From assembly GCA_903835235.1 (NCBI GenBank), contig CAILMF010000079.1, forward strand, positions 1-64,000: DNA of 64,000 nucleotides, given 5' to 3'. Shown in pieces: positions 137-42,801 of the stretch. This stretch comes from an uncultured Rhodospirillales bacterium. GTDB lineage: Bacteria; Pseudomonadota; Alphaproteobacteria; Acetobacterales; Acetobacteraceae. Both the position numbers and the translations under genes were made by a program. Under the pieces are notes generated by a model, which was not told the origin of the DNA, searched no databases, and worked only from the letters and a program-made list of their open reading frames with translations. Within the stretch, counting starts at the first letter, position 1, and every line of letters begins with the position of its first letter.

Positions 137-859
137 CTAGCCCAACGCCCAGCGCCGCGGCCGCAGCCCCGCCTGGAACCAGCAGATCATGCTGTAGATG
201 TCGTAGACCGGCAGCCCGATCTCAGCCGCCAGGTCGGCGGCGTAGGGCGGCATGTTGGTGCATTCCAGCACCACTGCGCCCACCTCCGGATGCGCCGCCA
301 CCAGCGCCCGCCCGGCGTCCAGAATGTCGGCGCGGGCCAGGTCGACATCCATGTCGTCGCGCTCGGCCTTGATCAGCACGCGGAAGAACTCGCGCCCGCC
401 TTCGGTGCCGGTGACCGGCGTGTCCAGCGGCACGCCGGCGGCAGCCAGGTGGCGCGGGGTCAGCCCCGCCTTGTTCACCGTCACCACACCCACCCGCTTG
501 CCCGCCGGCAGCGTCGCCTGCACCCAGGGCACCTGCATCAGGCTGGAGGTCGCGACAGGCACGCCCACCGCCGCCGCCAGCTCCGCCTGGAACAGGCTGA
601 GGAAGCCGCAATTGGTCGTGATGGCCTCGGCGCCCAGCCGCACCAGCTCCTGTGCCGCGGCGACGAAGTCCGGCAGCAGCCCGGCGGCGCCGCCCACCAC
701 CACGCGCTCCGGGCTGGCGCCGGGCACCACCTTGAACAGCACCGGGAAGGGCCAGGTGGTGCCATTGCCCATGTCGCCGGGAATGCGCGGGAAGCGCGCC
801 TCCAGCATCAGGATGCCCAGGGGGGCGCCGTAGATGGCCTTGCCGCCTCGCGCGATCAC
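137..859 (-). CDS. Aspartate/glutamate racemase family protein
   Basis: A 240-residue cytosolic protein. The two catalytic cysteines expected in the Asp/Glu/hydantoin racemase superfamily are visible in TTNCGFL (first half) and LECTNMPPYA (near residue 200), which fits a cofactor-independent two-base racemase or a related arylmalonate-decarboxylase-type enzyme; the substrate cannot be read from sequence. The start is GTG at 859, preceded by GGAGG (866-870) with a six-base spacer. That site lies in a 26-bp tandem duplication, and the gene is chained to the upstream membrane-protein gene through two nine-codon minicistrons, so it is probably translationally coupled. No ATG alternative keeps the conserved N-terminal GGKAIYGAPLG stretch. 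Confidence 0.82.
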   Translation of the reverse strand: MIARGGKAIYGAPLGILMLEARFPRIPGDMGNGTTWPFPVLFKVVPGASPERVVVGGAAGLLPDFVAAAQELVRLGAEAITTNCGFLSLFQAELAAAVGVPVATSSLMQVPWVQATLPAGKRVGVVTVNKAGLTPRHLAAAGVPLDTPVTGTEGGREFFRVLIKAERDDMDVDLARADILDAGRALVAAHPEVGAVVLECTNMPPYAADLAAEIGLPVYDIYSMICWFQAGLRPRRWALG

Positions 860-911
860 GCGCGGCCTCCGATGGTTGCGATCACGCGCGGCCTCCGATG
901 GTTGCGATCAC
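860..911 (-). repeat. 26-bp tandem duplication carrying RBS and GTG start
   Basis: On the minus strand GTGATCGCAACCATCGGAGG plus CCGCGC (26 bases) occurs twice in a row, at 911-886 and 885-860, and is followed by the GTG start of the racemase-family gene at 859. Each copy starts with GTG, reads V-I-A-T-I-G-G-R-A, and ends with a TGA that overlaps the next GTG. The first GTG also overlaps the TGA stop of the upstream membrane-protein gene. Each unit contains GGAGG placed correctly for the next GTG. The unit loosely resembles the GATC-ended hairpin half of repeat family B, but that link is weak. Confidence 0.85.
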
Positions 912-1306
912 GCCGCCATCCTCCTCTCGTCGCCGCTGCGGGCCACCATCAGGAAGGCGGCGCCGAAGCCGATCATGCCGAGGAAGCCCTGCAGGCTCAG
1001 CGTCGCCTCGACGCCCTGCTGCTGCCAGAACCGGTGCACCATGACAGCGCCGAGGATGCTGACCAGCCCCAGCCACAGCGCGCCCAACTGCCGCGCCTTG
1101 CCCTCGAACAGCACAATGGCCACCGCCGCCAGCGCGTTGATCACCATCAGTCCCGCCACCGGCCCGGCCTTGGCGACGTGGTGGTGCCCGCCGGCCAGCA
1201 CCGCCATGGTCGCGGGGTCGCTCAGCGCGATGAAGCCGCCCTGCATCCAGCCGAGGCAGAGCGCCATCAGCAGCGCCCGCGTCACCCAGGTTGAAGACTG
1301 TTCCAT
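908..1306 (-). CDS. Small four-helix membrane protein, unknown function
   Basis: A 132-residue protein with about four hydrophobic segments (starting MEQSSTWVTRALLMALCLGW; later segments near AGLMVINALAAVAIVLF, LGALWLGLVSILGAVMV and LQGFLGMIGFGAAFLMVA). I do not recognise a named family; it resembles small DoxX- or DUF-type inner-membrane proteins only in size and topology. The start at 1306 was preferred over an upstream in-frame start at 1375 because the extra residues are basic and proline-rich, without membrane character. Its TGA stop overlaps a GTG that begins the minicistron chain leading to the racemase-family gene, so the two are probably co-transcribed. Confidence 0.65.
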   Translation of the reverse strand: MEQSSTWVTRALLMALCLGWMQGGFIALSDPATMAVLAGGHHHVAKAGPVAGLMVINALAAVAIVLFEGKARQLGALWLGLVSILGAVMVHRFWQQQGVEATLSLQGFLGMIGFGAAFLMVARSGDERRMAA

Positions 1307-1447: not shown

Positions 1448-2431
1448 ATGCTGCCTCGCCTGCTGCTGAGCCTGCTGATGCTTGCCGCGACCCCCTGGGC
1501 GGCGCTGGCGCAGGAAGCCCCCTGGCCGAACCGGCCCATCACCATCCTGGGCGGCTTCCCCAATGGCGCGGGCACCGAGATCTATGCCCGCCGGCTCAGC
1601 GACCCGCTGTCCCGCGCGCTGGGCGTGCCTGTCGTGGTGGACAACAAGTCCGGCGCCGGCGGCAACATCGCCAGCGATTTCGTCGCCAAGGCGCGGCCGG
1701 ATGGCTACCTGTTCCTGCTGGGCACCGCCGGCACCCACGCCATCAACGCCACGCTGTACCGCAACCTGCCATTCAACCCGCTGCGGGATGTCACGCATAT
1801 CGCCCTGCTGGGGGATGTGCCCAACGTGATGCTGGTGAACCAGCAGCACACGCCGGGCTTCCGCAGCTGCGCCGACGTGCTGGCCGCCGCCCGCGCCCGC
1901 CCCGGTGCGCTGAACTATGGCAGCACCGGCAATGGTGCCTCCACCCACCTGGCCGGTGCCGCCTTCGCCACCGCCTTCGGCCTGCAACTCCAGCACATCC
2001 CCTATCGCGGCCAGCCCGGCGCCATGGAGGCGCTGCTGAAGGGCGATGTGCAGTTGTTCTTCAACCAGACCGGCCCGGCGATCGCGCTGATCCAGCAGGG
2101 CCAGGCCCAGGGCCTGACGGTGATGCAGAACACCCGCGTCCCCGCGCTGCCGGACCTGCCCACCGTCACCGTCGCCTGCGGGCAGGAGATGAACACCAGC
2201 ACCTGGTACGGGCTGTTCGCCCCGCCCGGGCTGCCCGCCGCCATCCAGGCGCGGATGAACGCGGAAGTCGCGAAGATCATCCGCACCCCCGCCTTCACCG
2301 ATTGGCTGGTGATGAACCAGGGCATTGTCCCGCCCACCGACCTGACGCCGGAGGGCTTCCGCCGCACGCATGAGGCCGACATCGCCCGCTGGGCCACGGT
2401 GGTGCGCGCTTCCGGCGCGCAGGTGGATTGA
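1448..2431 (+). CDS. Bug-family tripartite tricarboxylate receptor
   Basis: A 327-residue periplasmic solute-binding protein. From the ATG at 1448 it has a clear Sec signal (MLPRLLLSLLMLAATPWAALA) and then the Bug/TctC signatures: PNRPITILGGFPNGAGTE, VVVDNKSGAGGNIAS, and GALNYGSTGNGASTHLAG in the middle. A TTG 57 bases upstream would add a non-signal extension, so it was not chosen. Bug proteins bind carboxylates for TctABC transporters or act as sensors. No tctA/tctB genes are nearby, so this is an orphan receptor, as is common in this group. Its TGA overlaps the ATG of the following hydrolase gene, suggesting one operon with the hydrolase and the FAD oxidase. Confidence 0.9.
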   Translation: MLPRLLLSLLMLAATPWAALAQEAPWPNRPITILGGFPNGAGTEIYARRLSDPLSRALGVPVVVDNKSGAGGNIASDFVAKARPDGYLFLLGTAGTHAINATLYRNLPFNPLRDVTHIALLGDVPNVMLVNQQHTPGFRSCADVLAAARARPGALNYGSTGNGASTHLAGAAFATAFGLQLQHIPYRGQPGAMEALLKGDVQLFFNQTGPAIALIQQGQAQGLTVMQNTRVPALPDLPTVTVACGQEMNTSTWYGLFAPPGLPAAIQARMNAEVAKIIRTPAFTDWLVMNQGIVPPTDLTPEGFRRTHEADIARWATVVRASGAQVD

Positions 2432-39494: not shown

Positions 39495-39619
39495 ACAGCC
39501 AACCCTCCGGCCACGGGGCGCGGGCGCCCCGGTCGATTCCCTTGGCCCCAGGTCTAGCAGAGGCCGGGTTAATGATCACCAGGGCTTGATCGGCTTACCC
39601 ACAGCTATCAGGAGGCCAG
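39495..39619. other. Leader region of the second OmpA gene
   Basis: This GC-rich stretch lies between the 57-bp array and the OmpA start. GGAGGGT is close before the ATG (at 39497-39512 on the minus strand). I see no clear -10/-35 pair. The array and this segment together form a 394-bp gap without a supported gene. Confidence 0.4.
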
Positions 39620-39883
39620 CGCCCGGTCCGCGCAGGCGCGCAGCGGCCGGAGCGGTGAACCGGCCGCTGATACACGCGCCCGGTCCGCGCAGGCGCGCAG
39701 CGGCCGGAGCGGTGAACCGGTCGCTGATACACGGGCCCGGTCCGCGCAGGCGCGCAGCGGCCGGAGCGGTGAACCGGTCGCTGATACACGCGCCCGGTCC
39801 GCGCAGGCGCGCAGCGGCCGGAGCGGTGAACCGGTCGCTGATACACGCGCCCGGTCCGCGCAGGCGCGCAGCGGCCGGAGCGG
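39620..39883. repeat. 57-bp tandem repeat, 4.6 copies
   Basis: Units start CGCCCGGTCCGCGCAGGCGC at 39620, 39677, 39734, 39791 and 39848 (the last is 36 bases). The units differ by single bases only. Each holds AGCGGCCGG and CCGGTCGCT, which form a stem (the first unit has CCGGCCGCT, a perfect match). The array ends five bases before the stop codon of the leftward dehydrogenase gene and precedes the second ompA-type gene. Because 57 is a multiple of three, frames stay open through it on both strands, giving false coding signals. Confidence 0.95.
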
Positions 39884-39888
39884 CCGCC

Positions 39889-42801
39889 CTATGCCAGCGC
39901 CTGGTCCAGCAGCCGCACGCTGTGCAGCGCCGCCCGCCCGGCCAACCCTTCGATCTGATGCCGGCACGACGTGCCATCGGCCAGCACGTAGTCCCCGGCC
40001 ACGGCCGCGCGCACCGCCGGCAACAGGTTGAGTTCCGCCATGGCGCGGGATGTCGCCTGGTTCGCCGCCTCATAGCCGAAGGACCCGGCCATGCCGCAGC
40101 AGGAGGAGGTGATCGGCTTCACCGTAAGCCCCGGCACCCGCTGCAACAGCGCCAGCGTGGGCGCGAAGGCGGCGAAGGCCTTCTGGTGGCAATGCCCATG
40201 CACGTGCACGGTGGCCTCCACCCGGCCCAGCTTCAGCGTCGCCTTCTCGCGCGCCAGAAACTCCGCCAGCAGGAAGCTGCGCGCCGCCAGCGCCTCGGCC
40301 GCCGGGCCAGGCAGCAGCGCCAGGAACTCATCGCGCAGCGTCAGCAGGCAGGAGGGTTCGATGCCCACCACCGGCGTGTTGGGGAAAGCATCCAGCGCCG
40401 CCAGGGTCCGCGCCGCCTCTTCCCGCGCCTTGGCCACCAGCCCGGCGGCCAGCAGTGTGCGCCCTTCATCCAGCGGCCGGGCGCCGCGGGCCGGCCGCGC
40501 CACCACGGGGGTATAGCCGGCGGCGCGCAGCACCCGGGCGGCGGCGCGCAGGTTCTCGGGTTCGTAGTAGCGGTTGAACAGGTCCGGCAGCAGGATCACC
40601 TCGCCCGCCGCGCCCGAAGGCCAGGGCAACTCGGCGTCGTGGAAGGCGTCTCGCCGGAAGCGCGGCAGGGCGCGCGTGGCGCTGATGCCGAGCAGGGCCT
40701 GCGCCACCCAGCGCGCCCCGGGCACCCATTCCCGCGCATTGCTCAGCGGCGCCAGCATGGCGGCAAACGGCGCCCAATGCGGCATGCCCGCCAGCACCCG
40801 GTCCTTCAGCGAAAGCCCATGCGACGCCACCCGTGCCGCCAGGTGCTCGATCTTCAGCTTGGCCATGTCCACGCCGGTCGGGCATTCCCGCCGGCAGCCC
40901 TTGCAGGAAACGCACAGTGCCATTGCCGCCGCCACGTCGTCGCCGCCCAGCCCGCCGGGAATCTGCCCGGTCAGTGCCAGCCGCAGCGTATTAGCCCGGC
41001 CGCGCGTCAAATGCTGTTCGTCGCGCGTGGCGCGGAAGCTCGGGCACATCACCGCCGCGTCGAATTTCCGGCAGGTGCCGTTGTTGTTGCACATCTCCAC
41101 GGCGCTCAGCAGGCCCTGCTGCGGCCCGGGATAGGCGCTCCAATCCAGCGCCGGCGTCACGTTGATCGGCGCGTAGTCCGGCGCGTAGCGGAACAGGCTG
41201 CGGTCATCCATCCGCGGTGGCCGCACCACGCGGTTGGGGTTCAGCATCCCCGCGGGATCAAACGCGTCCTTCACCTGCTCGAAGGCGCGGGCGATGCGGC
41301 TGCCGAACATCGTCTCGTTGAACTCGGACCGCACGATGCCGTCGCCATGCTCGCCGGAATGGCTGCCCTTGTACTCCCGCACGAGAGCAAAACATTCCTC
41401 CGCGATGGTCCGCATCAGCTTTACGTCGCTGCCATCCTTCATGTTCAGCACCGGCCGCACATGCAGGCAGCCGACGCTGGCATGGGCGTACCAGGTGCCC
41501 TTGGTGCCGTGCTTCGCAAACACGTCGTTCAGTCGCTCGGTGTAATCGGCCAGGTCGTCCAGCGCGACGGCGCAATCCTCAATGAAGGAGACCGGCTTCC
41601 CGTCCCCCTTCATGGACATCATGATGTTCAGCCCGGCCTCGCGCACCTCCGCAATGGCGGCCATGAAGGCCGGGTCCACCACCCGCACCACCTGCTTCGG
41701 GTGGCCCAGGTCGGCCATCATCACCTCCAGCGCATCCAACTGGCGCAGCAGGGTGGCATCGTCCTCGCCGTGGAACTCCACGATCAGCAGGCTGTCCGGC
41801 TCACCGATCAGGATGCTGTCGATGGTGCTGCGGAACATGGCGATGGACCGGCCCAGGTCGATCATCGTCCGGTCCACCAGCTCCACCGCTTCCGGCATCA
41901 GCGTCACCAGGTGCTGGCTGGCTTCCATCGCCTTGCGGAAGGTCGGGAACTGGCAGATGCCCATCACCTTGCGCGGCTTCACCCGGTGCAGTTGCAGGGT
42001 CAGCGCGGCGGAATAGGCCAGCGTCCCCTCGCTGCCCACCAGCAGGCGGGCCAGGTTGCTGCGGCCATTCTGCCGCGCGGCCGGCGTCAGCGCATCGATG
42101 TTGTAGCCGCCCACGCGGCGCAGCTGCTTCGGGAAGCGCGCCTCGATCTCGGCGGCCTCGCGCGCGCCCAGCGCCCGCAACCGCTGGATCAGGTCGGCGG
42201 TCGCCGCCGGCACCTCGGCGCCCAGATTGTCCGGCAACTCGCCAAACCGGAACTGCGAGCCATCCGCCAGCAGCGCGTCGATGGACAGCACGTTGTCGGC
42301 CATGAGCCCGTAGCGGATCGACTTGCCGCCGCACGAGTTATTGCCGGCCATGCCGCCGATGGTGCAGCGCGCATGCGTGGAAGGATCGACCGCGAAGAAC
42401 AGCTTGTGCCGCGCGATCTCCCCATTCAGCGCGCCCAGCGCGATGCCGGGCTCAACCGTCGCGGTCTGCGCTGCCGCATCCACGCTCAACACGCGGCGCA
42501 GATATTTGGAAGTATCGATCACCAGCGCGCGGTTCACCGTCTGCCCGCACTGGCTGGTGCCGCCGCCGCGCGGCAGCACCGGGATGCCTTCCTCCCGGCA
42601 GATCGCCATCGCCGCCTGCACATCGCCGATGCTGCGTGGGATCAGCACGCCCACCGGCTCCATCTGGTAGATGCTGGCGTCGGTCGCGTAGCGCCCGCGG
42701 TCGGCGGCGCCGAACAGCACCTCGCCCTCGGTTTCGCGCTGCAAACGCCCGGCCAGCTTGCTGTCGCCGATGCGGTCCTTGGGAATGGTGAAGGCGTCCA
42801 T
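39889..42801 (-). CDS. FAD-linked oxidase / Fe-S dehydrogenase (YdiJ-like, D-2-hydroxyacid)
   Basis: A 970-residue fusion. Residues about 1-500 form a GlcD-type FAD domain (VLPRGGGTSQCGQTVNRALV, then CTIGGMAGNNSCGGKSIRYG). A 4Fe-4S motif CVSCKGCRRECPTGVDMAKL follows near residue 635, and the C-terminal CCG-type domain has HGHCHQKAFAAF and SSCCGMAGSFGYE. This is the layout of E. coli YdiJ, which oxidises D-2-hydroxyglutarate or a similar D-2-hydroxyacid and passes electrons to a carrier. Only one Fe-S motif is seen. It is divergent from the M24 peptidase gene. The 57-bp tandem array follows its stop. Confidence 0.9.
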   Translation of the reverse strand: MDAFTIPKDRIGDSKLAGRLQRETEGEVLFGAADRGRYATDASIYQMEPVGVLIPRSIGDVQAAMAICREEGIPVLPRGGGTSQCGQTVNRALVIDTSKYLRRVLSVDAAAQTATVEPGIALGALNGEIARHKLFFAVDPSTHARCTIGGMAGNNSCGGKSIRYGLMADNVLSIDALLADGSQFRFGELPDNLGAEVPAATADLIQRLRALGAREAAEIEARFPKQLRRVGGYNIDALTPAARQNGRSNLARLLVGSEGTLAYSAALTLQLHRVKPRKVMGICQFPTFRKAMEASQHLVTLMPEAVELVDRTMIDLGRSIAMFRSTIDSILIGEPDSLLIVEFHGEDDATLLRQLDALEVMMADLGHPKQVVRVVDPAFMAAIAEVREAGLNIMMSMKGDGKPVSFIEDCAVALDDLADYTERLNDVFAKHGTKGTWYAHASVGCLHVRPVLNMKDGSDVKLMRTIAEECFALVREYKGSHSGEHGDGIVRSEFNETMFGSRIARAFEQVKDAFDPAGMLNPNRVVRPPRMDDRSLFRYAPDYAPINVTPALDWSAYPGPQQGLLSAVEMCNNNGTCRKFDAAVMCPSFRATRDEQHLTRGRANTLRLALTGQIPGGLGGDDVAAAMALCVSCKGCRRECPTGVDMAKLKIEHLAARVASHGLSLKDRVLAGMPHWAPFAAMLAPLSNAREWVPGARWVAQALLGISATRALPRFRRDAFHDAELPWPSGAAGEVILLPDLFNRYYEPENLRAAARVLRAAGYTPVVARPARGARPLDEGRTLLAAGLVAKAREEAARTLAALDAFPNTPVVGIEPSCLLTLRDEFLALLPGPAAEALAARSFLLAEFLAREKATLKLGRVEATVHVHGHCHQKAFAAFAPTLALLQRVPGLTVKPITSSCCGMAGSFGYEAANQATSRAMAELNLLPAVRAAVAGDYVLADGTSCRHQIEGLAGRAALHSVRLLDQALA

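Follow-up and report, generated by a model that had tools for sequence, protein, structure and literature searches.

Apparently duplicated stop/start junctions between bacterial genes form chains of minicistrons that probably preserve translational coupling

A 26-bp sequence stands twice in direct succession on the minus strand (886-911 and 860-885) of the window, the whole 64,000-nt stretch of DNA that was analyzed, and its two identical copies, or units, separate a membrane-protein gene from a racemase-family gene. Three 4-nt GTGA overlaps link the TGA of the upstream gene to a pair of 9-codon mini-ORFs and these to the racemase-family GTG, and we consider it probable, with moderate confidence, that self-bridging minicistron chains of this kind preserve termination-reinitiation coupling across a gap that duplication has widened. 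The array is neither a product of chance nor restricted to one genome. On the minus strand the end of the upstream gene (...GAGAGGAGGATGGCGGC) is followed by the two units (GTGATCGCAACCATCGGAGGCCGCGC and GTGATCGCAACCATCGGAGGCCGCGC) and then by the start of the racemase-family gene (GTGATCGCGCGAGGC...), and the features of the region are as follows, with Shine-Dalgarno (SD) sites given with their duplex energies:

137 to 859, minus strand: racemase-family gene, 240 aa, GTG at 857-859 (NCBIfam NF005679 PRK07475; Pfam PF01177, Asp-Glu-racemase family)
856 to 885, minus strand: mini-ORF 2, VIATIGGRA-stop (translation)
860 to 885, minus strand: unit 2, 26 bp, identical to unit 1 (sequence, TRF)
866 to 870, minus strand: GGAGG in unit 2, 6 nt ahead of the racemase-family GTG (-9.5 kcal/mol)
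882 to 911, minus strand: mini-ORF 1, VIATIGGRA-stop (translation)
886 to 911, minus strand: unit 1, 26 bp (sequence, TRF)
892 to 896, minus strand: GGAGG in unit 1, 6 nt ahead of the unit 2 GTG (-9.5 kcal/mol)
908 to 1306, minus strand: upstream gene, 132-aa predicted small membrane protein (MEQSSTW...RRMAA*), TGA at 908-910 (ORF call)
920 to 925, minus strand: SD-like AGGAGG for the first GTG, within the 3' end of the upstream gene (-11.3 kcal/mol)
1448 to 2431, plus strand: divergent TctC-type solute receptor gene, a conserved neighbor in the genus (PF03401)

The earlier note had described a 26-bp unit with GGAGG and GTG, present twice on the minus strand between two genes, and our analyses agreed with that description: TRF reported a period of 26, 2.4 copies and 100% matches over 852-913, the upstream TGA (908-910) overlaps the first GTG (909-911), and each unit translates as V-I-A-T-I-G-G-R-A-TGA, the last TGA overlapping the GTG at 857-859 as that note had read it. 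Its proposal that the minicistrons are chained and might permit serial reinitiation is likewise supported, at the level of sequence, by unbroken overlap chains. That GTG is very probably the true start of the racemase-family gene, since no further ATG, GTG or TTG occurs in its frame between the upstream stop and 857-859, and cross-genus conservation of the protein starts at I-A-R-G-G, that is, from the second residue onward. The 132-aa upstream protein had no match in Pfam or NCBIfam; relatives of its gene are present in five of six genomes of the genus. A purine-rich SD stands 6-8 nt before every start of the window's chain, in the preceding ORF as in coupled gene pairs, and the three duplex energies (-11.3, -9.5 and -9.5 kcal/mol) compare with a coding-region 5% point of -7.8 kcal/mol.

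The window array is the second-strongest tandem repeat in the window by TRF score, and its unit occurs at a single site in the whole 5.97-Mb assembly (search with up to 3 mismatches). Exact tandem repeats with a period of 15-120 are rare in this genome, with four in a 430-kb sample, and the window array is the sole one of the four to separate two genes and coincide with a start. In the same sample, for which gene calls were crude and made by codon GC, a chain of ORFs with 4-nt overlaps was found in 2 of 64 co-directional gaps of 10-120 nt when the window locus was included and in 1 of 63 when it was excluded. Two other repeats were observed in passing. One, at 39619-39883 of the window, is a GC-rich 57-bp unit in 4.6 copies (98% identity) with GCGCGCCTGCGCGG-type cores, and begins a few bases past the stop codon of the ORF at 39889-42801, a minus-strand gene; the other, in the window's genome (contig C55, 148952-149069), is a 24-bp unit, CGCGGAGCGGCACGCGCCTGATTT, in nearly five copies from the end of a called gene.

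Several of these observations would also be expected of a neutral by-product, in which slippage copied the start region, translation of the racemase-family gene begins de novo at the final GGAGG-GTG, the units ahead of it do nothing, and the overlaps exist only because the unit begins with GTGA. We hold this to be a real possibility, though a rather unlikely one. Every window unit has a good SD of its own, and the GGAGG of the last unit could allow the gene to be initiated de novo; other tandem repeats of this genome are also found outside genes; and a 26-bp period gives the overlap chain automatically. Since the chain follows automatically from any 2 mod 3 duplication, finding it unbroken within a single array adds no independent evidence.

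Six genomes of the genus (G000-G005) were compared, G000 being the window's own. An array-type junction was found in four of them, one of which (G003) has two copies, giving five loci with 1 to 4 units whose sequence differs between species, so that the comparison of copy number in relatives proposed in the earlier note did reveal variation. G000 has units of 26+26 bp, G004 of 44+26+26 bp and contig C4 of G003 of 27+26+26+26 bp; contig C117 of G003 has a single unit (MIPNPGDRA*), and the 47 nt of G005 may, on our reading, be a degenerate pair of units, 27 and 20 bp long. In the outgroup, G001, the upstream gene ends in TAG and a GTG follows after a short gap, with no units, and G002 has no upstream gene. 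In 5/5 array-bearing loci the upstream stop is connected to the racemase start by an unbroken chain of ORFs with 4-nt overlaps, and at every step of it, as in the window, the stop/start overlap of termination-reinitiation pairs is present. The gaps measure 22, 43, 48, 92 and 132 nt and the first segments 26, 47, 26, 44 and 110 nt, all five of the latter being 2 mod 3. Unit lengths have thus varied (27, 20, 44, 26) yet total segment lengths remain 2 mod 3, which speaks against inert units, as does the retention of most SDs in the genus, although one degenerate G003 unit has lost most of its SD. In a tree of the racemase gene the five array rows fall together on one side of a branch in 95% of bootstrap trees, the fork itself having support of 83/92. 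The two versions of the locus in G003 differ in state: L025 (contig C4) is intact with four units, and in L005 (contig C117) the upstream gene is without its first third and the racemase frame continues into other sequence.

Units are identical or nearly so within G000 and within G004, whereas the G000 units share 17-22 of 26 bases with the well-kept units of G004 and of contig C4 of G003. The between-species differences fall in positions 8-19 (counted from 0), and all nine genus units compared keep TGA, one C, one G and CCGCGC unchanged. With a variable core beside a constant start, SD spacing and frame, the array itself turns over while those three elements persist. It is very nearly negligible as a probability that the array is an assembly artefact: the window's genome is an 87-contig draft and most relatives are drafts too, several of them MAGs, but separate assemblies show different copy numbers and diverged units, and the window array spans only ~60 bp, which is shorter than ordinary short reads. 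A look-up of the habitats of the related MAGs gave nothing useful. A search with a two-copy unit pattern, which is blind to G005 and to the single-unit copy of G003, matched 3/299 family genomes, all in the window's genus, and no array was found upstream of the racemase in other genera among the 80 named loci screened (L030-L109), where the 26-bp repeat occurred only in L034 and L032, both same-genus records. Three further loci of that set have 15-bp repeats farther upstream and were set aside as unrelated to the array.

The differences among species also bear on the suggestion that the repeats are binding sites for a DNA or RNA regulator, either operator repeats or sites for an RNA-binding protein at GGA motifs. 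The 26-bp spacing is regular, and repeated GGA motifs are of the sort bound by CsrA-type proteins; against this, the units differ strongly between species except in the start, the SD and CCGCGC, there is no excess of RNA structure, and arrays elsewhere share a stop/SD/start logic without a common sequence. We consider such a role highly improbable. Predicted folds of the arrays do pair successive start regions, but folding energies around the arrays were no stronger than those of shuffles, and RNA structure was accordingly dropped as the key to them. An attenuating leader peptide was also rejected, given the same folding result and the fact that the peptides differ between species (VIATIGGRA, VIAPQGGRA, VIAHLECRA and MIPNPGDRA across the genus loci).

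The junction is not the single-locus curiosity that the earlier note would have made of it, as the same type of array was found at further junctions in genomes of the family and the class. A period-26 pattern (GGAG N7 RTGA N11 GGAG N7 RTGA) matched at 8 places in 6/200 family genomes and a reversed control at none, and every match was itself a tandem repeat. A looser pattern with variable gaps matched in 68/299 family and 39/308 class genomes, mostly at non-tandem sites; calling a row tandem when its two spacers agreed at 6 or 7 of 7 positions left 17 loci in the family and 6 in the class. The following junction arrays have flanking genes identified by Pfam on both sides, the last two having been spotted by eye outside the spacer rule:

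psd to pss (G063): 29-bp units, five mini-ORFs, MNSATAGAAP-like
def to COQ9 (G085): two mini-ORFs, MIAPAGDRR
chorismate mutase-like gene to aminotransferase (G193): MMCFGGAVK
greA to ilvA (threonine-dehydratase-like; G019): four mini-ORFs if CTG can start the first; also a 24-bp step
oxidoreductase to DAO (G685): MNELSGAEK
pdxJ to acpS (G535): two mini-ORFs
TssC to ImpE (G221): 24 bp, in-frame, one 48-aa ORF
DAHP synthase to QRPTase (G207): 24 bp, in-frame, N-terminal extension
MaoC to M19 (G217): 17 bp, by eye
M24 peptidase to GST (G221): 23 bp, chain broken, by eye

The chain is unbroken in nine of these ten, the exception being the M24 peptidase-GST junction; among the nine, one requires a CTG start and another has a simple -4 overlap plus an in-frame extension. 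What the arrays at other junctions have in common is their stop/SD/start logic, not their sequence, and such arrays appear to have arisen repeatedly, at the junctions of several unrelated gene pairs, through the duplication of stop/start overlaps. The remaining loci were rejected as junctions: G306 and G198 have no convincing genes at the array, the repeats of G307 lie behind a gene, G483 has no nearby ORF of 70 aa, G051 and G119 have a start-region repeat without a coding gene in front, and the repeats of G121, G233, G062, G246, G129, G567 and G603 are within coding frames. Single bridging minicistrons were also observed, at ~1500 of L113 (G002), between LivH-like and LivM-like permease genes, and at ~1500 of L114 (G001), behind an acyl-CoA-synthetase-like gene, these genes being named by sequence inspection; a single bridge is therefore not remarkable.

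The origin of the arrays is clearest at the def-COQ9 junction, where the mini-ORF of G085 consists of the first residues of COQ9 (MIAP) fused to the last residues of the deformylase (AGDRP/R). Five further genomes of that genus were queried, of which two had no match, and in all three that were readable (G208, G245 and G160) no unit is present and the overlap of the two genes measures exactly 4 nt; on this basis the G085 array is a duplicated overlap, and the sequences indicate that an array is in general a tandem duplication of an RTGA stop/start junction together with its SD. For the window locus the same origin is proposed by analogy, because a direct ancestor with a 4-nt overlap was not found in the window's own clade, the outgroup having the TAG, gap and GTG noted above. 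Such a duplication would have different outcomes according to its length. A copy of 2 mod 3 would be read in the frame of the downstream gene and then in that of the upstream gene, stopping at the next RTGA; one of 0 mod 3 would place an N-terminal extension on the downstream protein; and one of 1 mod 3 would lose the coupling. The 2 mod 3 class is the only one that keeps both proteins plus the coupling.

Of the 23 tandem loci, 12 are 2 mod 3, one is 1 mod 3 (G306, not a junction) and 10 are 0 mod 3, mostly coding repeats. With the junction shared by G000 and G004 counted once, the ratio of 2 mod 3 to 1 mod 3 is 11:1 in tandem loci versus 23:28 among the rows of those searches that are not tandem (Fisher one-sided p = 0.003, the rows from related genomes being not all independent), a bias that counts against the neutral explanation. 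Distinct junctions under the strict rule are few (n = 9) and their status was assigned after the loci were seen; seven are 2 mod 3, two are 0 and none is 1, and the probability of at least seven of nine at one third is 0.008. The frame rule was fixed before the results of the class search had been seen, in which both junctions (G685 and G535) proved to be 2 mod 3, too few to carry weight alone. This excess of 2 mod 3 lengths suggests that selection keeps the hand-over between genes.

We therefore return to the reading that chains preserve coupling. Each extra copy would be a tiny ORF that opens with the first codons of the downstream gene and then enters a copy of the end of the upstream gene, and because that end is read in the upstream gene's own frame the mini-ORF would be open by construction. 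Ribosomes finishing the upstream gene would reinitiate stepwise on each minicistron and reach the downstream start, so that coupling could survive although the gap is 22-135 nt, mostly past the 20-40 nt over which it reportedly fades, and a 2 mod 3 duplication would leave both flanking proteins unaltered. We infer that the mini-ORFs are translated and that coupling is what selection keeps; each reinitiation step may cost some yield. This relay is favored over the neutral explanation because short ORFs, SDs and 4-nt overlaps would satisfy reported coupling conditions step by step. Coupling kept across a widened gap is also a better-supported role than the tuning of the downstream gene proposed in the earlier note. 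We regard as quite unlikely the wider proposition that junction duplication is a general way for operons to absorb sequence without losing coupling and that minicistron number (0 to 5) is a heritable step-wise attenuator, in which each reinitiation would pass on a fixed fraction and slippage would add or remove steps.

The anatomy has a counterpart in the engineered bicistronic design, in which a minicistron leader holds a second SD and its stop overlaps the gene start. That design resembles a one-step version of the array (short ORF, internal SD, stop/start overlap), and the window mini-ORFs match it in anatomy, in that each short putative ORF holds the next SD and has a stop that overlaps the next start; the arrays differ in being natural, serial, derived from junction duplication, and fed by an upstream gene rather than by a promoter-proximal leader. 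Unlike the array, the short upstream ORF of E. coli iraD is not known to have a gene in front. For iraD a natural short ORF is reported whose translation is coupled to that of the following gene; it is a lone uORF controlled by CsrA, with no tandem copies, whereas the window array is tandem (PMC5574718). Termination-reinitiation at 4-nt overlaps, as described in published reports, shares with the arrays the RTGA overlap, the SD in the preceding ORF and a strong need for short distance (PMC6728339, PMC10666635; reviewed by Brown and Wade 2025, PMC12548453). These reports place coupling at its best at -4 to +3 nt, fading over 20-40 nt with exceptions (PMC12548453, PMC10666635) and nearly lost at about 20 nt (Huber et al. 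2023, PMC10666635), and report that the last 15 nt of the upstream gene are enough for reinitiation (Huber et al. 2023, PMC10666635) and that SDs usually help (Huber et al. 2019, PMC6728339). The systems treated there are ordinary gene pairs, whereas the arrays interpose 1-5 duplicated ORFs of 4 to 48 codons as a possible relay. In the non-subscription literature searched, no account of bacterial minicistrons arranged in tandem or in series was found. By analogy, the array may work like termination-reinitiation coupling and bicistronic design in series.

Comparison does not easily show whether the frequent 4-nt overlaps of operons are kept for coupling or simply reflect compact packing. Duplicated junctions offer natural experiments on this question: three frame classes would arise, of which a single one retains both proteins together with the coupling. 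The arrays would then be natural multi-step reinitiation relays, ready-made constructs with which the yield passed on per step may be measured.
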